The position numbers were made by a program, and so were the translations under genes. A DNA stretch of 64,000 bases, from the NCBI RefSeq assembly GCF_900113955.1, contig NZ_FORH01000003.1, positions 62,001 through 126,000 on the forward strand. Reading direction: 5' to 3'. Of this stretch, positions 17,364 through 44,697 are shown one piece after another (positions within the stretch are counted from its first letter, which is position 1; each line of letters opens with the position of its first letter). Source of the DNA: Celeribacter neptunius. Lineage in GTDB: Bacteria > Pseudomonadota > Alphaproteobacteria > Rhodobacterales > Rhodobacteraceae. The notes under the pieces were generated by a model. That model worked only from the letters and a program-made list of their open reading frames with translations. It made no database searches and was not told the origin of the DNA.

Positions 17364-18143
17364 TCAGTGGGCGCGTTCGAGCATCATCTTCTTGATATGC
17401 GCGATCGCCTTGGCCGGGTTGAGACCTTTCGGACAGGTTTTCGCACAGTTCATGATGGTGTGGCAGCGATAGAGCTTGAACGGGTCCTCGAGCATATCGA
17501 GACGCTCGCCGGTGGCCTCGTCGCGACTGTCGATCAGCCAGCGGTAAGCGTGCAGCAGCGCGGCCGGTCCAAGATACTTGTCGCCGTTCCACCAATAAGA
17601 CGGGCAAGAGGTCGAACAGGAGGCACACATCACGCATTCATAGAGACCGTCGAGTTTCTTGCGATCCTCGATCGACTGACGCCATTCCTTTTCGGGACGG
17701 TTGGTCTTGGTCTCGAGCCAGGGCATGATCGAGGCGTGCTGGGCATAGAAATGCGTCAGATCCGGGATCAGGTCCTTGACCACGTCCATATGCGGCAGCG
17801 GGAAGATCCGCACGTCGCCCTTGATCTCGTCGAGACCGTAGATGCACGCGAGCGTGTTGATCCCGTCGATGTTCATCGCACAGGAGCCACAGATACCCTC
17901 ACGGCAGGAGCGGCGGAAGGTCAGCGTCGGGTCGATCTCGTTCTTGATCTTGATCAGCGCGTCGAGAACCATCGGACCGCATTTGTCCATGTCGAGGAAA
18001 TAGGTATCCACCGACGGATTCTTTTCGTCATCGGGGTTCCAGCGGTAAATCTGGAACTTGCGGACATTGGTCGCGCCTTCCGGCTTCGGCCAGGTCTTGC
18101 CCGTCACGATCTTGGAATTCTTGGGAAGGTTGAATTGAACCAT
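17364..18143 (-). CDS. sdhB: Succinate dehydrogenase iron-sulfur subunit
   Basis: A 259-residue subunit of complex II carrying electrons from the flavoprotein to ubiquinone. All three clusters can be read: the [2Fe-2S] ligands in [12 protein letters not shown] plus a later Cys (residues about 73-93), the [4Fe-4S] motif [12 protein letters not shown], and the [3Fe-4S] motif [17 protein letters not shown] 18143 has AGGAG 9 bases upstream and gives the usual length; the upstream extension has no family similarity. It is the last gene of the sdhC-D-A-lipoprotein-B operon, ending at a strong terminator. Confidence 0.97.
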
Positions 18144-18154
18144 CGTTTTTTCTC

Positions 18155-18478
18155 CTAACCGAGCAGGCCGCTCAGACCGTTCTGAGCAACGCATTTGAGA
18201 GTTTCGGGCTCGCTGGCGATTTCTGTCACCGTGGTCACCGTGCTGGAATCCACCCCAACCACCGCGGCCTTCGCGAGGCTCACAAGTTGAGATGTATTGG
18301 CATTGTCCATCACACAGTCCACGTAGAGATCGGCATCAACTCCTGGGAATTTGGAGCTGATAACCGTTTTGACGACACCTTTCGCGGCCACGCGGGTCGT
18401 GTCCTCCACCAGGGGAGAACTCTCCACGCAACCGCTCAGGATCAAAGCGGAAAGGGCAGCAAAAGCAGCCCCTCGCAT
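18155..18478 (-). CDS. Small lipoprotein encoded between sdhA and sdhB
   Basis: A 107-residue protein with a lipoprotein signal peptide ([11 protein letters not shown], lipobox LSGC, lipidated Cys at residue 17) and a soluble part with two further Cys that could form a periplasmic disulfide. Its ATG overlaps the sdhA stop by one base (TGATG), and sdhB starts 11 bases after it, so it is embedded in and translationally coupled to the complex II operon. The function is unknown. I recall comparable ORFs at this position in other Rhodobacteraceae. A role in complex II assembly or envelope anchoring is speculation. Confidence 0.75.
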
Positions 18479-20286
18479 CAGAATGTCCTCGCTTTCGGCG
18501 CGATCTTGGCGAGGCTGATACCACCCTCGTCCTCGGTCGTGAGCGGGGCTTCGATGATCGGGCGATAGCTGAGCTCGACCTTGTTGCCTTCGACGCGGGA
18601 GATGGTGTGGATCCGCCAGTTCTTGTCGTCACGCTCCGGATAATCCTCGTGGGCGTGCGCACCACGGCTCTCCTTGCGCGCCTCGGCCCCGTGGATGGTG
18701 GCCAACGCGTTCGGCATCAGGTTGGTGAGCTCGAGCGTTTCCATCAGATCGGAGTTCCACACGAGCGAGCGATCGGTGACATGAAGGTCATCCATTTTCG
18801 CGGCCACGGCGGTCATCTTCTCGACGCCTTCCTTGAGCGACTTGTCGGTGCGGAACACGGCGGCATCGGCCTGCATCGTGCGCTGCATCTCGAGGCGCAG
18901 TTCGGCGGTGGCGATATTGCCCTTGGCGTGGCGGATGCCGTCGAAACGATCGAAAGCCTTCTGCACGGAGGCCATGTTGAGCTCCGGGTTCGGGGATTTC
19001 TTGTCGACGACCTGACCGGCGCGGATCGCGGCGGCACGACCGAAGACAACGAGGTCGATCAGCGAGTTGGAGCCGAGACGGTTGGCACCGTGCACGGAGG
19101 CACAGCCCGCTTCGCCCACGGCCATCAGGCCCGGCACGACCGCGGTCGGATCGTCTTTCGATGGGTTGAGCACTTCGCCGTGATAGTTGGTCGGGATACC
19201 GCCCATGTTGTAATGCACGGTCGGCAGAACCGGGATCGGCTCCTTGGTCACATCCACACCGGCAAAGATCTTCGCGGATTCGGAGATGCCCGGCAGACGT
19301 TCCGCCAGCGCCTCGGCCGGAAGGTGGCTGAGGTTGAGGAAGATATGATCGCCATGTTCACCGACACCGCGGCCTTCGCGGATCTCCATGGTCATCGAGC
19401 GGGACACGTAGTCGCGCGGCGCCAGATCCTTGTAGGTCGGGGCATAGCGTTCCATGAAACGCTCGCCTTCGGAGTTGGTCAGGTAACCGCCCTCACCGCG
19501 CGCACCCTCGGTGATCAGACAGCCGGAGCCGTAGATACCGGTCGGGTGGAATTGCACGAATTCCATATCCTGAAGCGCCAGACCCGCGCGGGCCACCATG
19601 CCGCCACCGTCACCGGTGCAGGTGTGCGCCGACGTGGCGGAGAAGAAGGCACGACCATAGCCGCCGGTCGCCAGAACCACCATTTTCGCGGAGAACAGGT
19701 GGAAGGTGCCGTCATCGAGTTTCCAGCACAGCACGCCCTGACACACGCCGTCGTCGGACATGATCAGATCGATGGCGAAATATTCGATGTAAAACTCGGC
19801 TTTCTCTTTCACCGACTGGCCGTAAAGCGTGTGCAGGATCGCGTGACCGGTGCGGTCGGCGGCGGCACAGGTGCGCTGCACGGGCGGGCCTTCACCGAAC
19901 TCGGTGGTGTGGCCACCAAACGGACGCTGGTAGATCTTGCCCTCTTCGGTGCGCGAGAACGGCACGCCGTAATGTTCGAGCTCGTAAACCGCCTTCGGCG
20001 CCTCACGGGCGAGGTATTCCATCGCGTCGGTGTCGCCGAGCCAGTCGGAGCCCTTGACGGTGTCATACATATGCCACTGCCAGTTGTCCGGCCCCATGTT
20101 GGAGAGCGATGCGGCGATGCCGCCCTGGGCGGCCACGGTGTGCGAGCGCGTCGGGAAGACCTTGGTCACACAGGCGGTGCGCAGCCCCTGTTCGGCCATG
20201 CCGAGCGTGGCGCGCAGGCCAGAGCCGCCGGCGCCGACGACCACGACGTCATATTCGTGAGTTTCATATTCATATGCTGCTGTCAT
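18478..20286 (-). CDS. sdhA: Succinate dehydrogenase flavoprotein subunit
   Basis: A 602-residue catalytic subunit oxidising succinate to fumarate. The FAD-binding N-terminus reads [18 protein letters not shown], the covalent-flavin His lies in [14 protein letters not shown] (near residues 47-60), and the active-site region [15 protein letters not shown] (near 252-266) is present. The length fits alphaproteobacterial SdhA. AAGGA lies upstream of ATG 20286. The order sdhC-sdhD-sdhA-lipoprotein-sdhB indicates one operon. The TGTGATCACA operators upstream of sdhC would control it. Confidence 0.97.
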
Positions 20287-20299
20287 CGTATTCTAGTCC

Positions 20300-20671
20300 T
20301 TACAGCGCGAGTTTCACGAGGGCGAAGAGGCCCGCTGCGATCAGGGTGTAGCAGAAGAAATTCATGCCGATGACGAGGAAGGCCCGGGTGAAACCGCCGG
20401 TGTAATCCTCGACCATCATCTGCCAGCCGCGCATCATGTGGAGCATCGACACCACGAGCGTCAGCCCGGCGACGATCGCGGGGAACGGACGGCTGTAATA
20501 GGCCACGACCTCTTCATAGGTCCCGCCCAGCGCACAGCCGAAGGTGAAAATGAACAGCGGCACCAGGATCAAGAGGCCGATCGACGAGGTGATCATGAAC
20601 CAGTGGTGATCCGCACCATGATGAGCGGAACCGAGATTGGCAGCGCGTTTGCGGTCAGTGAGAAATGCCAT
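20300..20671 (-). CDS. sdhD: Succinate dehydrogenase hydrophobic membrane anchor subunit
   Basis: A 123-residue integral membrane protein with three predicted helices (starting at about residues 27, 60 and 95). It carries the conserved heme/quinone-side stretch SMLHMMRGWQMMVEDY, whose His is the likely heme ligand. It anchors complex II with SdhC. GGAGGCGACA is directly upstream of ATG 20671. It sits between sdhC (10-base gap) and sdhA (13-base gap). Confidence 0.94.
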   Translation of the reverse strand: MAFLTDRKRAANLGSAHHGADHHWFMITSSIGLLILVPLFIFTFGCALGGTYEEVVAYYSRPFPAIVAGLTLVVSMLHMMRGWQMMVEDYTGGFTRAFLVIGMNFFCYTLIAAGLFALVKLAL

Positions 20672-20681
20672 TGTCGCCTCC

Positions 20682-21071
20682 TTAAACCACGAGAGCCGTG
20701 AAGATCGTCAGGACCGTGGCGCCGATGAACATCGCCCAGCCCATTTTTTCGGAAATATCGACGTCGAGGCAATAGCCAGCGTCCCAGATCAGGTGGCGAA
20801 GACCGCCGCCGAGATGGTACCAGAGCGCCCAGACGGACAGGAACATGATGATGTCCCCGAGCCAGCAGGTGATCAGTCCGTTGACGAATTCGTAATACTC
20901 GGGACCGGCGGCAGCGGCGATGAGCCACCACACAGAGAGGAACGCGGCTGCGATCAGCGCGTTGCCCGTAATCCGCACCATGACCGACGAAAGCGCGGTC
21001 ATCTGGAGCCGATAGTATTTGACGAACATGAAGGGGGAAAGCGGTCGGTTGCCGCGATTCACATCAGCCAT
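20682..21071 (-). CDS. sdhC: Succinate dehydrogenase cytochrome b556 subunit
   Basis: A 129-residue membrane subunit, first gene of the sdh operon. It starts NRGNRPLSPFMFVKYYR, followed by three membrane helices, with the heme-ligand His in the block WYHLGGGLRHLIWD (about residues 83-96). These are hallmarks of the SdhC family. AAAGGA lies upstream of the ATG. Two TGTGATCACA-type operators lie 130-159 bases upstream of the start. Confidence 0.95.
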   Translation of the reverse strand: MADVNRGNRPLSPFMFVKYYRLQMTALSSVMVRITGNALIAAAFLSVWWLIAAAAGPEYYEFVNGLITCWLGDIIMFLSVWALWYHLGGGLRHLIWDAGYCLDVDISEKMGWAMFIGATVLTIFTALVV

Positions 21072-21200
21072 GGTGGCGTCCTTTCACGATTGATGCGGTT
21101 TGTGGTTGTTCCCCGTATGATACTTTTCATCCGCCGAGTCACCACCTGTGAGCGCTAACATTTGTGGTTTCCGGTCATTTCCGGTCGCAAAAACAAGTTA

Positions 21201-21230
21201 TGTGATCACAAGAAACTTGCCGTGATCACA
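21201..21230. promoter_or_regulatory. Paired TGTGATCACA operators upstream of sdhC
   Basis: TGTGATCACA at 21201-21210 and CGTGATCACA at 21221-21230, centres 20 bp (two helical turns) apart, spacer AGAAACTTGC. The same pair with a near-identical spacer is found before sucC. Probably bound by the GntR-type regulator encoded at 40865-41518, whose own start is preceded by the same palindrome. The rest of the 365-base gap 21072-21436 holds no gene. Confidence 0.75.
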
Positions 21231-21301: not shown

Positions 21302-21335
21302 AAAAGGGCCATGCAACACCCGCATGGCCCTTTTT
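21302..21335 (-). terminator. Terminator after the mch gene
   Basis: GGGCCATGC, loop AACACCC, GCATGGCCC, with T runs on both strands. It lies 102 bases beyond the minus-strand mch stop. Confidence 0.7.
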
Positions 21336-21436
21336 GCGATCACAAATTCACGCTTATGCATGGATTCCCACTGCGCGATCGTGTCTCCCCCTGCGCCCCC
21401 TCTTTGGTCTGACAGGTCGCTGCAGGGTTCTCCGGC

Positions 21437-22468
21437 TCAGAGCGGCACCACCGCCCAATAGTCGAGATCCAGAAGCACGTCGGGATGGTATTTCCCCTCG
21501 TCCGTTTTATAGGCAAACTCCGGCGCGCCATGTTTGTAGGCCACGAGACGCAGACGCAGCGCACCGACGCCGGGCGCCGCGGTCTCCGCCTTGTCGAGAA
21601 CCTCGGTATAGGCCCGCACGGTATCGCCGGTGAAACACGGGTTGGCATGCGCGCCACCGTTGAGACCCACGATCATCTGGGCATTGGCCAACCCGTTGAA
21701 CGACAGCGCCCGCGCCATCGAGATCACGTGCCCGCCATAGATCAGCCGCTTGCCATCTTCGCGATTGGTGGCGTCGAAATGCACCTTGGCGGTGTTCTGC
21801 CAGAGCCTTGTGGCCATCATGTGCTCGGCTTCCTCGATGGTCACACCATCGACATGGTCGATTTTCTCGCCCACCTCGTAATCCGCCCAGCGATGCTCCT
21901 CGCCCGCCAGAGTGAAATTGTAGCGCAGGAAATCCAGCCCTTCCGGGATCACCAGATCTTCCGGCGCCACGACCTTTGCAAGCTCCGGGATCACGGTCTC
22001 GGGCGCCGGCGCGTCGAGATTGCCTTTGCGCACCATCACCCAACGCACATATTCGAGCACCACCTCGTCATATTGGTTGAGCCCCCTGGTGCGGACATAG
22101 ACCACGCCGGACTTGCCGTTGGAATTCTGCTTGAGCCCGATCACCTCGGAGACCGAGCGCAACGTGTCGCCGGGATAGACCGGTTTCAGCCAGCGCCCCT
22201 CGGCATAGCCCAGATTCGCCACGGCATTGAGGGAGATATCCGGGACGGTTTTGCCAAACACCACGTGGAAGGCGATCAGATCGTCGAGCGGGCTTTTCTC
22301 GAGCCCGCAGGTCTCGGCAAATTCATCGGAGGAATAGAGCGCATGGCGCGCCGGGTAGAGCGCATGATAGAGCGCGCGTTCGCCGCCCGACACGGTGCGC
22401 GGCACGGCGTGCTCGATCACCTGACCAATGCTGTAGTCCTCGAAAAAACGTCCCGGATTGGTTTTCAT
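21437..22468 (-). CDS. mch: Mesaconyl-CoA hydratase (MaoC family)
   Basis: A 343-residue double-hotdog (MaoC-like) hydratase. Blocks characteristic of mesaconyl-CoA hydratase are visible: NPGRFFEDYSIGQVIEHAVP at the N-terminus, LLIDLIAFHVVFGKTVPD-like text near residues 60-77, and LIYGGHVISMARALSFNG (about 240-257). The enzyme hydrates mesaconyl-CoA to beta-methylmalyl-CoA in the ethylmalonyl-CoA pathway. GGAGGACAAGGG precedes ATG 22468. It is the last gene of an operon beginning with malyl-CoA thioesterase, which agrees with its role. Confidence 0.92.
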   Translation of the reverse strand: MKTNPGRFFEDYSIGQVIEHAVPRTVSGGERALYHALYPARHALYSSDEFAETCGLEKSPLDDLIAFHVVFGKTVPDISLNAVANLGYAEGRWLKPVYPGDTLRSVSEVIGLKQNSNGKSGVVYVRTRGLNQYDEVVLEYVRWVMVRKGNLDAPAPETVIPELAKVVAPEDLVIPEGLDFLRYNFTLAGEEHRWADYEVGEKIDHVDGVTIEEAEHMMATRLWQNTAKVHFDATNREDGKRLIYGGHVISMARALSFNGLANAQMIVGLNGGAHANPCFTGDTVRAYTEVLDKAETAAPGVGALRLRLVAYKHGAPEFAYKTDEGKYHPDVLLDLDYWAVVPL

Positions 22469-25977: not shown

Positions 25978-27024
<1,047 letters not shown>

Positions 27025-30778: not shown

Positions 30779-30809
30779 TGTGATCACACAAAACTTTGCT
30801 GTGATCACA
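30779..30809. promoter_or_regulatory. Paired TGTGATCACA operators upstream of sucC
   Basis: TGTGATCACA at 30779-30788 and 30800-30809, with an 11-base spacer CAAAACTTTGC close to the sdhC-side spacer AGAAACTTGC. They lie 110-140 bases before the sucC start. A small bulged hairpin (30829-30850) follows. The rest of the 427-base gap 30492-30918 shows no gene. Confidence 0.75.
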
Positions 30810-30918: not shown

Positions 30919-32112
30919 ATGAACATCCACGAGTATCAGGCCAAATGCCTTCTCAAGGAATACGGTGCGCCGGTCTCTGACGGCCGTGTCGTTCTCAACG
31001 CAGCCGACGCCAAGACCGCCGCGGGCGAGCTTGACGGCCCGCTTTGGGTGGTGAAAGCCCAGATCCACGCCGGTGGCCGCGGCAAAGGCTCCTTCAAGGA
31101 AGCCGCAGCCGGTGAAAAAGGCGGTGTGCGTCTTGCCAAGTCGGTCGAGGAAGCCGCCGAGGAAGCCAACCGCATGCTCGGCCACACGCTGGTCACGCAC
31201 CAGACCGGCCCGGCCGGCAAACAGGTCAACCGCATCTATATCGAAGACGGCTCCGACATCGAGCGCGAGCTTTACCTCGCCCTGCTCGTCGACCGTCAGT
31301 CCTCCCGCGTGTCCATCGTGGCCTCCACCGAAGGCGGCATGGACATCGAGGAAGTCGCGGCGAACACGCCGGAGAAAATCCTCTCCTTCTCCATCGATCC
31401 GGCCACCGGGCTTCAGGGCTTCCACGGCCGCCGCGTCGCTTTCGCCTTGGGTCTCGAAGGCAAGCAGATCAAACAATGCGCCGCGTTGATCTCCAACCTC
31501 TACCGCCTGTTCATCGACAAGGACATGGAGATGCTGGAAATCAACCCGCTCATCGTCACCGATGCGGGCGATCTGAAATGTCTCGACTGTAAGGCCGGCT
31601 TCGACGGCAATGCGCTTTACCGCCACGCCGATATCGTCGGCCTGCGCGACGAGACGGAAGAAGACCCGAAAGAGCTGGCCGCTTCCCAGCACGACCTGAA
31701 CTACATCGCTCTGGACGGTGAGATCGGTTGCATGGTGAACGGCGCGGGTCTGGCCATGGCCACCATGGATATCATCAAACTCTACGGCGCAGAACCGGCC
31801 AACTTCCTCGACGTGGGCGGCGGCGCAACCAAAGAGAAAGTGACCGAAGCCTTCAAGATCATCACCTCTGACGACAACGTCAAAGGCATCCTGGTGAACA
31901 TCTTCGGCGGCATCATGCGCTGTGACATCATCGCCGAGGGCGTGATCGCCGCGGTGAAAGAGGTCGGCCTCAAGGTTCCGCTCGTTGTCCGTCTCGAAGG
32001 CACCAACGTGGAGCTCGGCAAAGAGATCATCAACAATTCCGGCCTCGATGTCATCGCTGCCGACGATCTCAAAGACGGCGCCCAGAAAATCGTTAAAGCA
32101 GTGAAGGGCTAA
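30919..32112 (+). CDS. sucC: Succinyl-CoA synthetase beta subunit
   Basis: A 397-residue ATP-grasp subunit that with SucD converts succinyl-CoA to succinate, producing nucleoside triphosphate. The N-terminus [19 protein letters not shown] is canonical, the grasp-domain block [16 protein letters not shown] is at about residues 43-58, and the C-terminal CoA-ligase block [20 protein letters not shown] is present. GGGAGAGGA lies upstream. It is the first gene of sucC-sucD-sucA-sucB-...-lpd, and the paired palindromes upstream probably control the whole set. Confidence 0.97.
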
Positions 32113-32117
32113 CAGAC

Positions 32118-33005
32118 ATGGCAATTCTCGTTGATGAAAACACCAAAGTGATCTGTCAGGGCTTCACCGGCTCGCAGGGCACCTTCCACTCTGAACAAGC
32201 CATCGCATATGGCACCAAAATGGTCGGCGGCGTGACCCCGGGCAAAGGTGGCAATGAGCACCTCGGCCTGCCGGTCTTCAACTCCGTGCACGAAGCCAAG
32301 GCCAAGACCGAAGCCAACGCCTCCGTGATCTACGTGCCGCCGCCGTTTGCGGCCGACTCGATCCTCGAGGCGATCGACGCCGAAATGGAGCTGATCATCT
32401 GCATCACCGAGGGCATTCCGGTCCTGGACATGATGAAAGTGAAACGCGCCCTGATGGACAGCAATTCGCGCCTGATCGGCCCGAACTGCCCGGGTGTCAT
32501 CACGCCCGACGCCTGCAAGATCGGCATCATGCCGGGTCACATCCACAAACGTGGCTCCGTCGGCGTCGTCTCCCGTTCCGGTACGCTGACCTATGAAGCC
32601 GTGAAACAGACCTCCGATCTGGGCCTCGGCCAGTCGACCGCTGTCGGCATCGGCGGCGACCCGATCAAAGGCACCGAGCATATCGATGTCCTCGACATGT
32701 TCCTCGACGATCCGGAAACCACCTCGATCATCATGATCGGTGAAATCGGCGGCTCCGCCGAAGAGGAAGCTGCTGAATTCCTCGCCGAGCAGAAGAAAAA
32801 AGGCCGCTGGAAGCCGACCGCTGGTTTCATCGCCGGTCGCACCGCCCCTCCGGGCCGCCGCATGGGCCACGCCGGCGCCATCGTCGCCGGTGGTAAAGGC
32901 GACGCCGAGTCGAAGATCGAAGCGATGAAATCCGCAGGCATCATCGTCGCCGACAGCCCGGCCACCCTCGGTGAAGCCGTGCAGGAAGCGATTGCGAAGG
33001 GCTAA
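32118..33005 (+). CDS. sucD: Succinyl-CoA synthetase alpha subunit
   Basis: A 295-residue subunit carrying the phosphorylated His, in the motif [16 protein letters not shown] near the C-terminus (about residue 250). The N-terminal CoA-binding part begins [20 protein letters not shown], and [15 protein letters not shown] is the conserved mid-section. It follows sucC by 5 bases, giving equimolar expression. A long hairpin without T run separates it from sucA. Confidence 0.97.
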
Positions 33006-33035
33006 GCCCGACGCTTGCGATCCTTGAAAATCCTC

Positions 33036-33067
33036 GCCTGCGCCCTTTCTCAAACGAGGGCGCAGGC
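33036..33067 (+). promoter_or_regulatory. Hairpin in the sucD-sucA gap
   Basis: GCCTGCGCCCT / AGGGCGCAGGC, a perfect 11-bp stem with a 10-base loop and no T tract. It may act as an mRNA processing or stability element, or a weak attenuator, within the operon. Confidence 0.5.
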
Positions 33068-33133
33068 GCACCCACAAAAGGCAATGCGATCCTGCCCTCG
33101 AAACGGAAACGCACCCCAGATAAGGTCAAACCG

Positions 33134-36103
33134 ATGAACGACCAGAGCCCCAACGACATCTTCCATGCCTCCTCCTTCATGCAGGGGCATAACGCGGAAT
33201 ATCTCGAACAGGTTTACGCGCAATATGCTCAGGACCCCACCTCCGTGGACGCCTCCTGGGCCGAGTTCTTCCAATCCCTGGGCGATGCGGCAAATGATGT
33301 CACCGCCGAGGCGGCAGGACCTTCCTGGGCGCGTATGGACTGGCCGCCGGTGCCGAATGATGAGCTGACCCATGCCTTGGACGGCCAATGGGCCGAACCT
33401 CTGGCCGCCGAGAAGGCCGGCAAGAAAATTCAGGAGAAAGCCGCCGAAAAGGGCGTCGCCATCTCCGAGGACCAGATCAAGCGCGCCGTCCTGGATTCCG
33501 TGCGCGCGATCATGATCATCCGCGCCTACCGGATCCGCGGCCATCTGATCGCCGATCTCGACCCGCTCAAGATGATCGATGAGACACCGCATCCGGAGCT
33601 CGATCCGAAAAGCTACGGCTTCACCGAAGCCGATATGGATCGCCCGATCTTCATCGACAACGTTCTGGGCCTGCAACATGCCTCGATGCGCCAGATCATC
33701 GACGTGCTGCAGCGCACCTATTGCGGCACGTTTGCGCTGCAATACATGCATATTTCCGATCCGGAACAGGCCGGCTGGCTGAAAGAGCGGATCGAAGGCT
33801 TCGGCAAGGAAATCCAGTTCACCCGCGAAGGCCGCCGCGCCATTCTCAACAAGCTGGTTGAGGCCGAGGGCTTCGAGAAATTCCTGCATGTGAAATACAT
33901 GGGCACCAAGCGCTTCGGCCTCGACGGCGGCGAAAGCCTCATCCCGGCGATGGAACAGATCATCAAGCGCGGCGGCAATCTCGGTGCGAAAGAGATCGTC
34001 ATCGGCATGCCGCACCGCGGGCGCCTGTCCGTGCTCGCCAATGTGATGTCGAAACCCTACCGCGCGATTTTCAACGAATTCCAGGGTGGTTCTTTCAAAC
34101 CCGAGGACGTGGACGGCTCCGGCGACGTGAAATATCACCTCGGCGCCTCCTCCGACCGTGAATTCGACGGCAACAAGGTGCACCTCTCGCTGACCGCGAA
34201 CCCGTCGCACCTCGAGGCGGTGAACCCGGTTGTGCTCGGCAAGGCCCGCGCCAAGACCGACCAGAACAACGACCCGGAGCGCACTTCGGTCATTCCGGTG
34301 CTCTTGCATGGTGACGCGGCCTTCGCGGGCCAAGGCGTCGTGGCCGAATGTTTCGGTCTGTCGGGCCTGCGCGGTCACCGCACCGGCGGCACGATCCACA
34401 TCGTGGTGAACAACCAGATCGGTTTCACCACCGCGCCGCATTTCTCGCGCTCGTCTCCGTATCCGACCGATATCGCCCTGATGGTGGAAGCCCCGATCTT
34501 CCACGTCAACGGCGACGATCCGGAAGCCGTGGTTCATGCCGCCAAGGTGGCCACCGAGTTCCGCCAGAAATTCCACAAGGACGTGGTGATCGACATCTTC
34601 TGCTACCGCCGCTTCGGTCACAACGAAGGCGACGAGCCGATGTTCACCAATCCGCAGATGTACACCAACATCAAGCGGCACAAGACCACGCTGCAACTCT
34701 ATACCGAGCGTCTCGTGGCCGACGGTCTCATCCCCGAGGGCGAGATCGAGGACATGAAAGCGGCGTTCCAGTCGACGCTCAATGACGAGTTCGAAGCCGG
34801 CAAGACCTTCAAGCCGAACAAGGCCGACTGGCTCGACGGCCGCTGGTCGCACCTGAATGCCGAAGGCGAAGAGTACCAGCGCGGTCAGACCTCGATCTCC
34901 GAGGACACCATGGCCCAGATCGGACGCTCGCTCACCAGCTATCCGGAAGGGTTCAACATCCACAAGACCGTGGGTCGTCAGCTCGACGCCAAATCGAAAA
35001 TGTTCGAAAGCGGCGAAGGCTTTGACTGGGCGACCGGCGAAGCGCTGGCCTTCGGCTCGCTTCTCACCGAGGGCTACCCGGTGCGTCTCGCGGGTCAGGA
35101 CAGTACCCGCGGCACCTTCTCGCAGCGGCACTCCGGTCTGATCGATCAGAAATCCGAAGACCGCTACTATCCGCTCAACCACATCCGCGAGGGTCAGGCC
35201 AATTACGAGGTCATCGACTCGATGCTGTCGGAATATGCAGTGCTGGGTTTTGAATACGGCTACTCGCTGGCGGAACCGAATGCGCTCACGCTCTGGGAAG
35301 CCCAGTTTGGCGATTTCGCCAACGGCGCCCAGATCATGTTTGACCAGTTCATCTCCTCTGGTGAACGCAAATGGCTCCGCATGTCGGGTCTCGTCATGCT
35401 TCTGCCGCACGGGTTCGAAGGTCAGGGTCCGGAACACTCCTCCGCCCGTCTCGAGCGCTTCCTGCAAATGTCCGCCGAGGACAACTGGATCGTGGCCAAC
35501 TGCACGACGCCGGCGAACTATTTCCACATCCTGCGTCGCCAGCTGCACCGCTCGTATCGCAAGCCGCTGGTGCTGATGACGCCGAAATCGCTTCTGCGTC
35601 ACAAGCTCGCCACCTCCGTGGCCGCCGATTTCACCGATGGGTCGTCCTTCCACCGCGTCCTTTGGGACGATGCGGATCGCGACAACGGCACCGCCAAGTC
35701 GGAAATGAAGCTCAAGGCCGACAAGGACATCAAGCGCGTCGTGATCTGTTCCGGCAAGGTCTACTATGACCTGCTGGAAGCCCGCGACGCCGCCGGCAAG
35801 GACGACACCTATATCCTGCGTCTCGAACAGTTCTACCCGTTCCCGGCGCTCTCCATGGTGAAAGAGCTCGAACGCTTCAAAGGCGCAGAGATCGTCTGGT
35901 GTCAGGAAGAGCCCAAGAACCAGGGCGGCTGGAGTTTTGTCGAGCCGAATATCGAATGGGTGCTGACGCGTATCGGCGCCAAGCACACGCGCCCGGTCTA
36001 TGCCGGTCGTGCCGCCTCCGCCTCGCCCGCCACGGGCCTGGCCTCTCAGCACAAAGCACAACAAACGGCGCTCGTGAACGATGCGCTCAATATCGAAGGG
36101 TAA
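33134..36103 (+). CDS. sucA: 2-oxoglutarate dehydrogenase E1 component
   Basis: A 989-residue thiamine-diphosphate enzyme decarboxylating 2-oxoglutarate and reductively succinylating the E2 lipoyl group. The N-terminal helix region ([20 protein letters not shown]) is the E2-binding segment. The core has [14 protein letters not shown] (near residues 292-305), a ThDP-binding stretch with [14 protein letters not shown] (near 393-406) and [12 protein letters not shown]. The C-terminal transketolase part is full length. It lies between sucD and sucB in the TCA operon; 4 bases separate it from sucB. Confidence 0.97.
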
Positions 36104-36107
36104 TCCA

Positions 36108-37610
36108 ATGACCGTTGAAGTTCGCGTCCCCACCCTGGGCGAATCCGTGACCGAGGCCACCGTTGCAACCTGGTTCAAGAAACCGGGCGATGCGGTCGCC
36201 GTTGACGAAATGCTCTGTGAGCTCGAGACCGACAAAGTGACCGTCGAGGTGCCCTCCCCCGCCGCGGGCGTGATGGGGGACATCATCGCCGCCGAGGGCG
36301 AGACCGTCGGCGTCGACGCCCTGCTGGCAACGCTGAACGCTGGCGACGGCGCTCCGGCGGCTCCTGCCCCGAAAGCCGATGCAGCCCCCGCTGCGGCTCC
36401 GGCCGCCGCCGGTTCTGCCGCCACCGTCGATGTGATGGTGCCGACCCTTGGCGAATCCGTGACCGAGGCCACCGTCGCCACCTGGTTCAAAGCCGTGGGT
36501 GATACGGTCGAAGCCGACGAGATGCTCTGCGAACTCGAGACCGACAAGGTCTCCGTCGAGGTTCCGGCCCCCTCCGCAGGTGTGCTGAGCGCGATCATCG
36601 CCAATGAGGGCGACACGGTTGCCGCCGGTGGCAAACTGGCCGAGATGTCCTCGGGTGCCGGCGCTGTTGCCGCGGCCCCCGCTGCAACCCCGGCCCCGGC
36701 CGCCGCGGCACCCGCCGGTGGCAAGGACGTCGAGAATGCGCCCTCGGCCAACAAGCTGATGGCCGAGAAAGGCGTCACCCCGGCGTCTGTCACCGGCACC
36801 GGCAAGGACGGTCGCATCATGAAGGAAGACGTGCTGAACGCGCTGAACAAACCGGCGGCAGCCCCGGCCCCGGCCGCAGCCCCCGCTGCCCCGCGTCCGG
36901 CCGAAGACGCCGCCCGCGAAGAGCGCGTGAAAATGACCAAGCTGCGTCAGACCATCGCCCGTCGCCTCAAGGAATCGCAGAACACCGCCGCCATGCTCAC
37001 CACCTATAACGAGGTGGACATGACCGAGGTGATGGCGCTGCGCAAAGAGTACAAAGACCTGTTCGAGAAGAAACACGGCGTCCGTCTGGGCTTCATGTCC
37101 TTCTTCACCAAGGCCTGTGTGCATGCGCTGAAAGAAGTCCCCGAGGTGAACGCCGAGATCGACGGCACCGATGTGGTCTACAAGAACTACGTCAACATGG
37201 GTGTTGCCGCTGGCACGCCGCAGGGTCTCGTGGTGCCGGTGATCAAGGATGCCGACAGCATGTCCTTCGCCGAGATCGAGAAAGCCATTTCTGAAAAGGG
37301 CAAACGCGCCCGTGACGGCAAGCTCTCCATGGCCGAGATGCAGGGCGGTACCTTCACCATCTCCAACGGTGGTGTCTATGGCTCGCTGATGTCCTCGCCG
37401 ATCCTGAACCCCCCGCAGTCCGGTATCCTCGGCATGCACAAGATCCAGGACCGTCCGATGGCGATCAACGGTCAGGTGGTGATCCGCCCGATGATGTATC
37501 TGGCGCTCTCCTACGACCACCGTATCGTCGACGGCAAAGGCGCCGTGACCTTCCTCGTGCGCGTCAAAGAAGCGCTGGAAGACCCGCGTCGCCTGTTGAT
37601 GGATCTGTAA
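36108..37610 (+). CDS. sucB: Dihydrolipoyllysine succinyltransferase (E2 of 2-oxoglutarate dehydrogenase), two lipoyl domains
   Basis: A 500-residue E2. It has two tandem lipoyl domains (about residues 3-78 and 104-180), each with the modified Lys in CELETDKV. Each is followed by an Ala/Pro-rich linker. An E1/E3-binding domain ([20 protein letters not shown], about 213-232) and a catalytic acyltransferase domain ending with [12 protein letters not shown] (active-site His and Asp) follow. Most bacterial SucB proteins have a single lipoyl domain; two is usual in Rhodobacteraceae as I recall. ATG 36108 starts 4 bases after sucA. A 9-bp hairpin follows the stop. Confidence 0.96.
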
Positions 37611-37623
37611 GACCAAGTTGTAT

Positions 37624-37653
37624 GCCTCGGGCAGATAGACTTTTGCCCGAGGC
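37624..37653 (+). terminator. Hairpin after sucB (attenuator-like)
   Basis: GCCTCGGGC, 12-base loop, GCCCGAGGC. A perfect 9-bp stem but no T tract afterwards, so transcription may partly continue into the small genes and lpd. Confidence 0.5.
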
Positions 37654-37680
37654 CATTTCCGAAGCCGCAATGGTACTTTG

Positions 37681-37938
37681 ATGAGCTATAGCCCTGAACC
37701 AGATCCCCGCGAAGAGCTCCCGAAGCTCACGGCATTCGCAGATCGGGTGGCTGCGTTCTACAAGAACAAGCCCATCAAGTTTTGGGGATTATTGTGGCTG
37801 TTTTCCGCAATCTTTGTCGTCCTTGAACTCATAACCGACGGCCTGTCAGGCTTCACGACACCGCGAGAAAAAACTTTTCTGACATATGGCCTCATTGGCT
37901 GGAGTTATCCGCTCTTTCTGTTCGTGAGACGGAGATGA
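37681..37938 (+). CDS. Small two-helix membrane protein (85 aa)
   Basis: An 85-codon ORF between sucB and lpd. It has a charged, proline-rich start (PEPDPREELP), then two hydrophobic segments (FWGLLWLFSAIFVVLEL at about residues 36-52; TYGLIGWSYPLFLFV near 67-81) and ends in basic residues. The ATG at 37681 is preceded by TTG, also in frame. Base composition is visibly less GC-rich than its neighbours, so it may have been acquired. I do not recognise a family, and its ribosome binding site is weak. Confidence 0.5.
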   Translation: MSYSPEPDPREELPKLTAFADRVAAFYKNKPIKFWGLLWLFSAIFVVLELITDGLSGFTTPREKTFLTYGLIGWSYPLFLFVRRR

Positions 37939-37940
37939 AA

Positions 37941-38057
37941 ATGACCCCACTCCTCGCCTTCCCTGCACAAATCGCGCATCGCGCCCCGGACTTGATCCGG
38001 GGCCTCTCCGCCAGTTTCTCGGGACCCCGGATCAAGTCCGGGGCGGGTGCTGCATGA
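37941..38057 (+). CDS. Possible 38-codon ORF spanning an inverted repeat and coupled to the MAPEG gene
   Basis: ATG 37941 has GGAG 6 bases upstream, and its TGA overlaps the next gene's ATG by 4 bases (ATGA). The first 19 bases closely resemble the start of the MAPEG gene (ATGACCCCNCTCCTC), hinting at a partial duplication. Its middle is encoded by a 21-bp inverted repeat, so the peptide contains mirrored DLIRG and PRIKSG segments. It may be a translated upstream ORF controlling the MAPEG gene or an accident of the repeat; I cannot decide. Confidence 0.35.
   Translation: MTPLLAFPAQIAHRAPDLIRGLSASFSGPRIKSGAGAA
37982..38045. repeat. REP-like inverted repeat (21-bp perfect arms)
   Basis: The left arm is 37982-38002 and the right arm 38025-38045, exact reverse complements built on CCCCGGATCAAGTCCGGGG, with a 22-base loop. 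This is a repeat type I recall as very common in alphaproteobacterial genomes. It sits within the odh/lpd operon just before the MAPEG gene and could stabilise or process the mRNA. Confidence 0.85.
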
Positions 38058-38449
38058 CCCCGCTCCTCACCCTCCTCGCCCTCGCAGGCCTGTTGCACAT
38101 CGCGCAATTCGTGGTGGCCTCTGTCATGGCGAATGTCGACCTCGGGCCGGGCTATACGACCTCGCCCCGCGACCGGGCACCAAGCCGCGAGATGCGCAAG
38201 ACCACGGGCCGGATGCTGCGCGCCTATGACAATCACGTCCAGATGTTCCCCTTCTTCGCCGCCGGTGTGCTCCTGATCCATCTGACGGATCAGTCGAGTG
38301 CCGTGACGCTCGGCGCCGCTTGGGTCTATCTGATCGCAAGGGTGCTCTACGTGCCCGCCTATGCTTTCGGCTGGCAGCCGTGGCGGTCCTATATCTGGAT
38401 GCTCGCCATGCTCTGCTGCGCCACCCTGTTCATCGCCGCGCTCGTCTGA
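38054..38449 (+). CDS. MAPEG-family membrane protein
   Basis: A 131-residue membrane protein with four predicted helices. It belongs to the MAPEG (membrane-associated eicosanoid/glutathione) superfamily: the block [20 protein letters not shown] (about residues 48-67) carries the AxxNHxE-like polar motif, and [19 protein letters not shown] lies near residues 99-117. Bacterial members are mostly uncharacterised; some act as glutathione transferases. It lies in the odh operon between sucB and lpd, 104 bases before lpd. Its ATG overlaps the stop of a tiny upstream ORF. Confidence 0.8.
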
Positions 38450-38553
38450 GCGCATATTCGAAATGCCCGACGGATGTCCGACAGAAGTCCGACGCAAATC
38501 CGACACCGAAATCGACACTGAAAACGACCAGATCCAAGACCAAGGAGAAGACC

Positions 38554-39948
38554 ATGGCATCCTATGACGTCATCATCATCGGCGCTGGCCCCGGCGGCTA
38601 CGTCTCCGCCATCCGCTGCGCCCAACTGGGCCTCAAGACCGCCATTGTCGAGGGCCGCGAAACGCTCGGCGGCACCTGCCTCAACGTCGGCTGCATCCCC
38701 TCGAAAGCGCTTCTGAACGCGACGCACCATCTGCATGAGGCAGAGCACAATTTCGCCGCCATGGGGCTCAAGGGCAAATCGCCCTCCGTCGACTGGAAAC
38801 AGATGAAAGCCTACAAGGATGACGTCGTCGGCCAGAACACCGGCGGTGTCGAATTCCTGATGAAAAAAAACAAGATCGACTGGCTCAAAGGCTGGGCCTC
38901 GATCCCCGCCGTCGGCAAGGTCAAGGTGGGCGAAGAGACCCACGACGCCAAAAATATCGTCGTCGCCTCCGGGTCCGTGCCGACCTCGTTGCCGGGTGTC
39001 GAAGTGGACAATGACGGCGGCATCGTCGTCGACAGCACCGGCGCGCTCGAACTGCCGAAAGTGCCGAAGAAACTCGTGGTCATCGGCGCCGGTGTGATCG
39101 GTCTCGAACTCGGCTCCGTCTATGCCCGCCTCGGCTCCGAAGTGACCGTGGTCGAGTTCATGGACTTCATCACCCCGGGCATGGATGCCGATGTCCAGCG
39201 CACCTTCAAGAAGCTGTTGGAAAAACAGGGCCTTAAATTCGTTCTCGGCGCCGCCGTGTCCGGTGTCGAAGCCTCGAAAACCAAGGCCAAGGTGAACTAC
39301 AAGCTGAAGAAAGACGATTCGGAACACACGCTCGACGCCGATGCGGTTCTCGTCGCCACCGGTCGCAAACCCTTCACCGACGGGCTGGGTCTCGCCGAGC
39401 TGGGTGTCGCATTCACCCCGCGCGGTCAGATCCAAACCGACGCGCATTGGGCCACGAATGTGCCGGGCATCTACGCCATCGGTGACGCGATTGTCGGCCC
39501 GATGCTGGCGCATAAGGCCGAGGACGAGGGCATGGCCGTCGCCGAGGTTCTGGCCGGCAAACATGGTCATGTGAATTACGACGTGATCCCGGGCGTGGTC
39601 TACACCTCGCCGGAGGTGGCCACCGTCGGCAAGACCGAAGCCCAGCTCAAGGAAGAAGGCCGCAAATTCAAGATCGGCAAGTTCTCCTTCATGGGCAACG
39701 CCCGCGCCAAGGCCGTGTTCCAGGGCGACGGTTTCGTCAAGCTCATCGCCGATGCCGAGACCGATCGCCTCTTGGGCGCTGCGATCATCGGCCCGGGCGC
39801 CGGCGATCTGATCCACGAGATCTGTGTCGGCATGGAATTCGGCGCCTCGGCCCAGGACATCGCCCTGACCTGCCACGCCCACCCGACCTATTCGGAAGCC
39901 GTGCGCGAAGCCGCTCTGGCCTGTGGCGACGGCCCGATCCACGCTTGA
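38554..39948 (+). CDS. lpd: Dihydrolipoyl dehydrogenase (E3)
   Basis: A 464-residue FAD enzyme that reoxidises lipoyl groups of the 2-oxo acid dehydrogenase complexes. The FAD motif [15 protein letters not shown] begins at about residue 6, the redox-active disulfide lies in [16 protein letters not shown] (residues about 38-53), and the NAD motif [20 protein letters not shown] and the C-terminal His-Glu dyad HAHPTYSEA are visible. AAGGAGAAG precedes ATG 38554. It is the last gene of the sucCDAB-lpd set and ends at a strong terminator. Confidence 0.97.
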
Positions 39949-40864: not shown

Positions 40865-41518
40865 TCAAACGGCCAGCATCCTGAGCCCCTGGGTCACATC
40901 GGAACGCACGGCAAGCCGCAACCCCGGCTCGTCCCCTGCCCTGAGAGCGGCGACGATCAGCCGATGATTATGCGGCACCTCGGTGCGGTTTAGCCGGCTG
41001 TAGAGCGCCCGCATGGTCGGTCCGAGCTGAAGCCAAACCGTCTCGGTCAAGGCCAGCATCGCCGGCGCCTGTGCCCGCAGATAGAGCGTGCGATGAAACT
41101 CCAGATTGGCGCGGATATAGCCGACATCGTCGTGTTTCGCGACCAGTTCGGCAATCGTGCCATTGATGGTCTGCAACCGTTCGATCAGCGCCATATGCGC
41201 CCGCGGCAAGGCCCGGGACGCCAGCTCCGGCTCGATCAGGGCGCGAATGGCGGCCAGCTCCTCGATCCGTTCGTTCGACAGCTCCGGCGTCGAGACCCGC
41301 CCCGAAGCCGACAGGTTCAGCCCGCCATCGGCCACCAGACGCCGCACCGCCTCGCGCGACGGCGTCATCGAGACATCGAACATCTTGCCGATGCCGCGCA
41401 GCGTCATCGCCTGCCCCGGCGGGAATTCCCCATGCATGATGCGGGTACGCAAGGCACGGTAGACCCTGTCATGGGCGGCGGAGGGGCTGTCGGACTGTCG
41501 AGGCGTCGGGGTGATCAT
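40865..41518 (-). CDS. GntR-family transcriptional regulator (FCD domain)
   Basis: A 217-residue regulator. The N-terminal winged HTH (about residues 15-80) has YRALRTRIMHGEFPPGQAMT, then MFDVSMTPSREAVRRLVADG. The C-terminal FCD ligand domain has a metal/ligand Asp/His set with ANLEFHRTLYLRA (His near residue 144) and NHRLIVAALRAGD (about 186-198). FCD regulators usually sense carboxylic acids. The palindrome TGTGATCACA lies 9 bases upstream of its ATG. The same palindrome pairs precede sdhC and sucC, so it is the best candidate regulator of these TCA operons. I recall AkgR of Rhodobacter as an alphaproteobacterial TCA regulator, but cannot establish orthology. Confidence 0.88.
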   Translation of the reverse strand: MITPTPRQSDSPSAAHDRVYRALRTRIMHGEFPPGQAMTLRGIGKMFDVSMTPSREAVRRLVADGGLNLSASGRVSTPELSNERIEELAAIRALIEPELASRALPRAHMALIERLQTINGTIAELVAKHDDVGYIRANLEFHRTLYLRAQAPAMLALTETVWLQLGPTMRALYSRLNRTEVPHNHRLIVAALRAGDEPGLRLAVRSDVTQGLRMLAV

Positions 41519-41526
41519 GGGCGCAA

Positions 41527-41536
41527 TGTGATCACA
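41527..41536. promoter_or_regulatory. TGTGATCACA operator before the gntR gene
   Basis: A single perfect palindrome, 9 bases upstream of the GntR start codon, matching the sites at sdhC and sucC. Its place over the start region suggests negative autoregulation. Confidence 0.65.
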
Positions 41537-41614
41537 AATCGCACAAAGGTCAATCCGCCCCGGACGGCTCTTGCCTGCGCTCCCTCACACCTGCTGCGCC
41601 CAGCCGCACAGAGC

Positions 41615-42304
41615 TCACTCAAAGCGCCAGGCGTGCAGCGTTTCGCCCTCAGCATGCAACCACCGCCGGTGTCCGGCATGATCCGGACAGATCCGGGCGA
41701 CATGGGCCCAGAAACGCTCCGAATGGTTCATCTCCAACCGATGCGCCACCTCATGCGCGGCGACATAATCCAGCACCGCTTCGGGGGCCATCATCAGCCG
41801 CCAGGAATACATGAGATTGCCTTCGGAGGTGCAGGAGCCCCAGCGCGAGCGCGGATCGCGCAGGCTCAGACGACCATAGGAGACACCCAGCGCCGCCGCA
41901 TACCGGTCGGTGGCGGCACGCAGCCGCAGCCCGGCTTCGAGCTTGAGAAAGGCCTTGATACGGGCCGGCACGCGGTCCTCGGCGCCGGGCACCTCGAGAC
42001 GCCCATCGCGCAGCACCGCACGGCGGCCCGTACCGGGGCAGATTTCCACCTCGCGACCCAAAACCGGGATCCGTGCACCGAATTCCGGATGCCGATCCTC
42101 GGGCCTGTTGCCGAGATGCTTGCGCACCCAGTCTTCCTTTTCCCGCAGAAAGGCCACGGCCTCGCGTTCCGGCAGACGTTTCGGCATCGACAGGGTCACC
42201 CGGCCATCGAGACGCGACACCCGCAGCGACAGCCGCCGGGCCCGCGCCGAGCGGCGCAGCGTGACCTGAACAGGCGGATCGCCGTCAAGATAAATATCGC
42301 TCAT
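41615..42304 (-). CDS. SprT/YgjP-type zinc metalloprotease
   Basis: A 229-residue protein of the YgjP/DUF45 M48-like metallopeptidase group. The zinc motif HEVAHRLEMNH (near residues 182-192) provides two His and the catalytic Glu, and RWGSCTSEGNLMYSWRL precedes it as in the family. ATG 42304 gives an N-terminus MSDIYLDGDPPVQV typical of the group; the frame runs further upstream without support. Cytoplasmic, substrate unknown. It is followed by the GntR gene on the same strand. Confidence 0.88.
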   Translation of the reverse strand: MSDIYLDGDPPVQVTLRRSARARRLSLRVSRLDGRVTLSMPKRLPEREAVAFLREKEDWVRKHLGNRPEDRHPEFGARIPVLGREVEICPGTGRRAVLRDGRLEVPGAEDRVPARIKAFLKLEAGLRLRAATDRYAAALGVSYGRLSLRDPRSRWGSCTSEGNLMYSWRLMMAPEAVLDYVAAHEVAHRLEMNHSERFWAHVARICPDHAGHRRWLHAEGETLHAWRFE

Positions 42305-42525
42305 ACGGTCCTCTTGGATCGAGCTGCCGCCGATCATCTGGCCTATCGGTTTGGCCGGTCTGCTTACCGGAAAATTTCCTCGCTGTTCTTTCCAATAGCG
42401 CGAGCAGATGCAACAGACCACCAAGTTTCCGCGATTTCCGGCAAAAGCCTTTGACACCTCTCTCGCGATATGGCATGGCCCGCAAATCTCCGCATATGGA
42501 TCAGCAATTACGAAAGGGATTCAAC

Positions 42526-43599: not shown

Positions 43600-44697
43600 A
43601 TGTTTATGTTTGCAGGCCTTCTTGTATCACTGACCGCTGCCGGGTTCATGTTTGATTTCTCGGGAGGCGAGTCGGAGGACCAAGATACGGCAACCACCGG
43701 CACCGAAGAGAACGATGCAATCGTCGGGTCCGACATGGATGATGAGGTCATCGCCGGGGCCGGCGAAGACATCATCTTCGGCAACAGCGGCGACGACACC
43801 ATTCGCGGCTATGCCGATGATGACACGGTGATCGGCGGCGATGGCGATGACGACCTGCGCGGCAACGGCGGCGATGATCAACTCTATGGTGAAGACGGCA
43901 ACGATCTGCTGCGGGGCGGCTGGGGCGACGATCTGGCGGTCGGTGGCGAAGGCAATGACACGCTGGTCGGCGACGAGGGTGACGACACGCTGATGGGTGA
44001 CGCAGGCGATGACCGGCTCTTTGGCGAAGAGGATGACGACACCATCTGGGGCGGGGACGGCAATGACGAGATCGATGGTGGCACGGGCCAGGACCTGCTG
44101 AACGGCGGCGCCGGTGACGACACCATCCGTGGCAGCGGCGGCAGCGACCTGATCTTTGGTGGCGAGGGCAATGACGACCTGCGCGGCAACTCGGGCGACG
44201 ATGTCGTCGATGGGGCCGAGGGCGAAGACCGTATTCGTGGCGGCGGTGGCGATGACACGCTCGCCGGCGGCGAGGATGACGATTACATCACCGGCGAGAT
44301 CGGCGATGACACCCTGCTGGGCGAAGACGGCAATGACGTCCTGTTCGACACCGAGGGCAGCAACATCTTCGATGGCGGCGCGGGCGACGATCACATCATC
44401 ACCGGGCAGACCGGCGATCTCACCGGCGGGGACGGTCTTGACCAGTTCGAGGTTGCCTTCGATTCCTTCGAAACCCCGATTGAGGGCGAGGACAGCGCCT
44501 ATCCGACGGTTCAGGACTTTACACCAGACGAAGATACGATCCTGCTGAGCGGCGTGCCGCAAGATGCCACCGTCGAAGTCAGCGCCATGGCAGATGGCAC
44601 CGGCTCCAATGTTCTGGTCGACGGCGCAATCGTTCTCGGTGTCCCCGGGGTGACGGATCTCACGGCCGATCAGATCGCGATCGAATACGCGGCCTGA
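43600..44697 (+). CDS. RTX (hemolysin-type calcium-binding repeat) protein
   Basis: A 365-residue protein. Residues 1-22 are hydrophobic (FAGLLVSLTAAGFMF) and could be a signal or anchor. From about residue 38 to 270 it is almost entirely Asp/Gly-rich nonapeptide repeats of the GGxGxDxx type (for example GGDGDDDLRGNGGDDQLYG), enough for a long calcium-binding parallel beta-roll. The last 80 residues are a non-repeat domain (VQDFTPDEDTILLSGVP) typical of roseobacter RTX proteins. No catalytic domain is seen. RTX proteins are usually secreted by a type I system, but no such genes are nearby. Confidence 0.88.
   Translation: MFMFAGLLVSLTAAGFMFDFSGGESEDQDTATTGTEENDAIVGSDMDDEVIAGAGEDIIFGNSGDDTIRGYADDDTVIGGDGDDDLRGNGGDDQLYGEDGNDLLRGGWGDDLAVGGEGNDTLVGDEGDDTLMGDAGDDRLFGEEDDDTIWGGDGNDEIDGGTGQDLLNGGAGDDTIRGSGGSDLIFGGEGNDDLRGNSGDDVVDGAEGEDRIRGGGGDDTLAGGEDDDYITGEIGDDTLLGEDGNDVLFDTEGSNIFDGGAGDDHIITGQTGDLTGGDGLDQFEVAFDSFETPIEGEDSAYPTVQDFTPDEDTILLSGVPQDATVEVSAMADGTGSNVLVDGAIVLGVPGVTDLTADQIAIEYAA

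Follow-up and report, generated by a model that had tools for sequence, protein, structure and literature searches.

Comparison with relatives shows that the putative operator GTGATCAC stands in pairs, with the copies 20–21 bp (about two helical turns) apart, before sdhC and before sucC, and as a single copy at the start of a GntR/FCD regulator gene. The window that holds all three promoters (the whole stretch of DNA analysed here, 64 kb in length; contig 13, bases 62001–126000, of a 4.4-Mb genome) most likely shows an already described system in which the regulator is AkgR, as judged from the gene neighbourhood, family-wide co-occurrence and published targets. The regulator, the motif and the targets have all been published, so the main claim itself has no novelty. 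What the comparison contributes is an operator grammar, with two sites at each operon and one at the regulator start, along with counts across the family and a prediction that the putatively leaderless regulator gene represses itself.

The palindrome, the regulator and its published counterpart

Exact copies of TGTGATCACA are found four times in the window, at 21201–21210, 30779–30788, 30800–30809 and 41527–41536, compared with a mean of 0.06 and a largest count of 1 in 100 dinucleotide shuffles of the window. The first-pass annotation had placed the palindrome at 41527–41536 and before both sdhC and sucC, and had seen no other full match in the window, all of which the exact search bears out. 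Its description of close pairs holds fully for sucC, where both copies are exact, and partly for sdhC, where one full copy is accompanied by a copy with one mismatch. Two further copies with one mismatch are located in the window at 21335 and 57792, and the former (TGCGATCACA, 21335–21344) is overlapped by the end of a terminator-like hairpin followed by T's (21302–21344, recognized by eye).

The akgR-like regulator gene (40865–41518, minus strand) encodes a protein of 217 aa with an N-terminal winged helix-turn-helix and a C-terminal FCD domain (Pfam GntR, E = 1.6e-11; FCD, E = 3.3e-19; both above cut-off), which fits the FCD group (FadR subfamily) of the GntR family. The protein is 92–94% identical to proteins of three Celeribacter genomes, and from this similarity the source of the window is most likely Celeribacter or a near relative in the Rhodobacteraceae. 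The metal ligands of the FCD pocket are one Asp and three His. H142 and H185, which we take to be FCD metal ligands, are invariant, and N138 and D207, presumably at two further metal-ligand positions, are present in 81/81 orthologues each. The TCA intermediate that the first-pass annotation named as a natural ligand is a putative assignment and one of the weaker parts of its interpretation. The predicted structure of the regulator is poor (mean pLDDT 65), and the nearest solved relative by sequence is the distant McbR of Escherichia coli (4p9f, E = 1.5e-18), the targets of which reportedly differ from those of the window regulator. Beyond the regulator gene lies a YgjP-like metallopeptidase gene (41615–42457), and beyond both a gene for an RTX calcium-binding repeat protein (nine stretches; 43600–44697).

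AkgR of Rhodobacter sphaeroides is, like the window regulator, a member of the GntR family; we take it to be RSP_0981 and presume that it has an FCD domain. RSP_0981 has been predicted to act on sdh, sucCD and 2-oxoglutarate dehydrogenase (PMC4344238), the same succinate dehydrogenase, succinyl-CoA synthetase and 2-oxoglutarate dehydrogenase genes as in the window, and AkgR is termed an activator whose sites carry GTGATCAC (PMC6365646), the motif also present at the sdh and suc promoters of the window. By locus number, the R. sphaeroides regulator is near the same TCA genes (RSP_0962 to RSP_0981), and the window genes are likewise clustered; the numbering puts the R. sphaeroides regulator beyond sdh, whereas the window regulator lies beyond lpd. 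The 80 loci listed in the regulator search of genome contigs included no R. sphaeroides. From this comparison, the GntR/FCD gene would be the AkgR orthologue of the window.

Paired sites precede the sdh operon and the suc genes

The sdh operon (17364–21071, minus strand; Pfam and family matches) contains sdhC (20682–21071) and the gene for the second membrane subunit of succinate dehydrogenase (20300–20671), each with an Sdh_cyt domain, followed by sdhA (18478–20286) and sdhB (17364–18194), both assigned by family match; all four are on the minus strand. Upstream of sdhC, the exact palindrome at 21201–21210 is the copy nearer the gene, and the copy with one mismatch (CGTGATCACA, 21221–21230) is 20 bp farther away. 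From the sequence and from relatives, GTGACT (21137–21142, minus strand) would probably serve as the −35 box for sdhC. A palindrome pair (20–21 bp apart, at most two mismatches per copy) was found before sdhC in 28/30 loci, and, counting from where the second operator starts, a GTGAC hexamer follows at 66–70 bp in 22 of these 28 promoters. The two sdhC loci lacking the pair are L157 (G032) and L178 (G048), the latter from a genome without the regulator. Besides L157, sdhC lacks the pair despite presence of the regulator in G090, and likewise in G033, which has a 47% relative of the regulator.

The suc genes (30919–39948, plus strand) were assigned by family matches to sucC (30919–32112), sucD (32118–33005), sucA (33134–36103), sucB (within 36081–37610, the match beginning at ORF residue 115) and lpd (within 38320–39948, the match beginning at ORF residue ~80), all on the plus strand. 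The two exact operator copies before sucC, at 30779–30788 and 30800–30809, are 21 bp apart, and a pair of the same spacing range and mismatch limit precedes sucC in 30/30 loci. Counting in the same way, TATA is present at 78–83 bp in 11/30 sucC promoters, and in 17/30 when looser forms are included, both counted by eye with no control. The 30 sucC and 30 sdhC loci, oriented by the listed strand and including the source genome, are the best SucC and SdhC matches and, because they were chosen as such, are not a random sample.

The paired sites would be situated ~85–120 bp upstream of the likely transcription start, and therefore at a place suited to an activator. Their position is thus consistent with activation, as is the term activator used for AkgR in print.

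Other elements and genes were observed around these promoters. A CceR-like palindrome (TGTGAGCGCTAACA, 21147–21160, one mismatch to the CceR consensus) sits between the AkgR sites and the likely sdhC −35 box. The core TTAGCG/CGCTAA occurs in 11/30 sdhC loci vs. 3.9 in shuffles, in 6 vs. 3.8 for sucC, and in 0 vs. 3.2 for akgR. CceR is, we presume, RSP_1663 of R. sphaeroides. In that organism, RSP_1663 has been predicted to act on sdh (PMC4344238). A second shared element, resembling GCGNCAAAA, separates the AkgR pair from the core promoter in 8/30 sucC and 10/30 sdhC loci and is found in 0/30 akgR loci (shuffles, 0.1–0.3); in seven of the eight sucC occurrences it follows the second site by 41–42 bp. 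Adjoining the sdh operon on the same strand is a mesaconyl-CoA hydratase-like gene (MaoC domain, 21437–22468), and a gene of the lactate/malate dehydrogenase family (26026–27024) is found between the sdh and suc genes.

A single operator at the putatively leaderless start of the regulator gene

The single operator of the regulator gene (41527–41536, an exact match) ends 8 bp before the start codon. The likely −35 box is TTGACC (41548–41553, minus strand), which precedes the operator by 11 bp and the start codon by 29 bp. CACATT (41525–41530, minus strand), read from the sequence, would be a weak −10-like hexamer that overlaps the operator and follows a 17-bp spacer. Because this spacer would put the transcription start at the start codon, we infer that the akgR mRNA is leaderless and that the operator covers the promoter.

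The arrangement is widely conserved. At the regulator start of 73/80 named relatives the site is present with at most one mismatch (exact in 66), and 62 of these 73 have it ending 7–10 bp short of the start codon. The family set has the site in 22/30 loci and lacks it in the other 8; the two sets overlap in part. In 72/80 relatives TTGAC is found no more than 50 bp from the akgR start codon, vs. 13/480 background windows, and the hexamer ends 28–32 bp before the start in 61/67 relatives with the site and in 5/5 without it. The distance from the first base of TTGAC or TTGAT to the operator is exactly 17 bp in 57 of the 73 relatives with the site and in 18 of the 22 family loci. Shine-Dalgarno-like bases around the site and start were seen in 3/73 relatives. 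From these features, akgR appears to be a leaderless, self-repressed gene, although its −10 hexamer is weak and a sigma-70 scan detects no promoter there.

These observations suggest a mechanism in which each palindrome would be bound by an AkgR dimer. At the tandem sites, two dimers would sit on the same face of the helix and activate sdhCDAB and the suc genes. At akgR, the mRNA of which is probably leaderless, the single site fills the stretch from the −35 box to the start codon, and a dimer there would block RNA polymerase and repress the gene. A TCA-cycle activator would in this way limit its own amount by negative feedback, with tuning by an FCD-bound metabolite; the polarity of the sites and the FCD ligand are both putative assignments. 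We hold with good confidence the overall account of an AkgR orthologue whose tandem sites activate sdh and suc and whose single site represses akgR. The sharper claim, that one palindrome acts with opposite polarities (activation of TCA operons from tandem sites, repression of leaderless akgR from a single site) in a feedback that much of the family retains and that disappears with the regulator, stands in our judgement slightly better than even.

Less probable, although a serious alternative, is that the sdhC and sucC sites are AkgR activator sites as published, while the akgR site either activates or is inert and the mRNA starts elsewhere. A scan with the sigma-70 consensus found no promoter at akgR, and 7/80 relatives lack the site there, as this alternative would allow. 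It fits poorly with the nearly fixed position of the operator between a conserved TTGAC and the akgR start codon, since a dimer bound there would obstruct RNA polymerase.

Self-repression through an operator at the leaderless akgR start is a prediction made here from sequence, and it sets the window gene apart from AkgR as described in the literature searched. Self-control of AkgR was not found in that literature, which did not extend to what is said to be the main paper on AkgR (Imam et al. 2015, mBio). The accessible portion of PMC5343134 does not treat AkgR. If opposite polarities are correct, the system provides a simple test of one operator acting both ways.

Sites and regulator co-occur across the family

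For a broader count, the exact 8-mer pair was searched in 149 family genomes, one per genus, with the genes behind the pairs unchecked per genome. It was present in 133/149 (twice in 106, once in 25, and three times in 2). The reversed pattern was found in none, a weak control because it contains CTAG, and a second control with permuted half-sites was therefore used, which also gave 0/149. CTAG is rare in such genomes. The operator grammar, with its compact set of three promoters, covers a large family of mostly unstudied bacteria.

By protein search, 131 of the 149 genomes contain an orthologue of the regulator (at least 63% identity) and two contain a 47–48% match (G033 and G122); the remaining 16 have no match better than E = 9.7e-46 and 38% identity. 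The exact pair occurs in 129/131 genomes with the orthologue, in 1/2 with the 47–48% match, and in 3/16 with neither (129/131 vs. 3/16, Fisher 4e-14, kinship ignored). The regulator gene is present with only degenerate pairs in G040, and in the absence of the exact pair in G147 (73% complete). The three genomes with sites and no detected regulator gene are drafts, G019 (~210 contigs), G096 (~50 contigs, 77% complete) and G114 (~320 contigs, completeness 100%), and it is possible that the gene was missed in them.

Inspection of individual promoters gave a similar picture. Among the sucC upstream stretches of 15 of the 16 gene-less genomes (G021 was unplaced), three carry the pair and 12 do not. 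A degenerate single copy, a leftover of the site, is present at the usual sucC position in two gene-less genomes, G017 (−139, two mismatches) and G109 (−116, one mismatch). Upstream of sdhC, the pair is present in 2 of 13 gene-less genomes, and the further gene-less G048 has none. In five odd-case genomes with the gene or its relative, pairs with at most three mismatches per copy were found at 5/5 sucC and 3/5 sdhC promoters (not in G033 and G090). The sites thus mostly disappear where the regulator is gone. The conservation of sites alongside gntR in relatives, proposed as a check by the first-pass annotation, was found at sucC, at sdhC, at the regulator start and in the family-wide pair count.

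A SucC tree built from 70 of the 149 genomes shows eight changes in the absence of the gene, three of these forced by well-supported branches. Independent contrasts on the supported branches number only three; on average 1.5 of them have the sites changing together with the gene, and none has them changing in the opposite direction, whereas the figure is 2/2 contrasts when the three exceptional drafts are left out. A sign test on three or two contrasts is unable to reach significance, and G033 was counted as having the gene.

Outside the family, a sample of the class contained the pair in 3/285 genomes (G295, G162 and G350), compared with 4/4 family members. In G295 (L220, C189:992–1020) the pair precedes a 26%-identical FCD gene, and in G162 (L219, C1:1130808–1130837) it lies ~2.5 kb from a 31%-identical one. 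The same palindrome GTGATCAC is also the proposed site of PS417_07240, the GntR regulator for the deoxyribose genes of Pseudomonas simiae, which is ~32% identical to AkgR and differs from it in its targets and in having a single site 40–47 bp before the start codon (PMC6365646). Because pairs occur near other FCD genes outside the family, the motif appears common to the FCD group, and it is probably older than AkgR.

These relatives, together with the eight matches in all to the regulator protein in the source genome, raise the alternative that the main binder of the palindrome is a paralogous GntR/FCD regulator and not the product of the gene at 40865–41518. We consider this improbable, as the pair is absent from 13 of the 16 orthologue-less genomes, each of which still has other matches to the regulator protein, and a copy of the site is found at the start of the orthologue itself. 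Site conservation and co-occurrence of the sites with the gene instead support the earlier proposal that one regulator controls sdh, suc and itself, and this proposal matches the published assignment of RSP_0981/AkgR.

Palindromes elsewhere in the genome

Exact TGTGATCACA occurs six times in the 4.4-Mb genome, four of them within the 64-kb window, and scaling up the window shuffle rate predicts ~4 chance copies per genome. Since ~4 would be expected and 6 are present, it is the placement of the copies that is improbable and not their genome-wide number. This near-expected number could speak for palindromes that arose by chance or that serve some other role in the DNA, for instance in restriction or methylation, but conserved place and spacing at sucC, sdhC and akgR and the permuted control pair (0/149) lead us to reject chance and leave this reading as a whole with a negligible probability.

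Of the two exact copies outside the window, one is inside the TRAP transporter gene dctM, and the other (contig C5) is ~50 bp before a short ORF with no Pfam match and also within a 552-codon open frame on the opposite strand. The expectation of the first-pass annotation that the palindrome would mark other central-carbon promoters was not borne out by these two copies. The wider-regulon comparison used exact copies, the genome having 86 places with at most one mismatch, and covered 20 of 24 exact sites outside the TCA cluster from five of 19 genus relatives, plus the two of the source genome; no further central-carbon targets were found among the exact sites examined. The source genome's two sites have no counterpart among the 20 from the five relatives. 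Stop-to-stop open frames of at least 100 codons enclose 19 of these 22 sites, although this is weak evidence. Between relatives, three locus pairs are alike, at 87–94% identity (L278/L300, L297/L306 and L280/L299). More exact palindromes are present in G042 (20) and G125 (29) than in the source genome (6), which might reflect a larger regulon or base composition.
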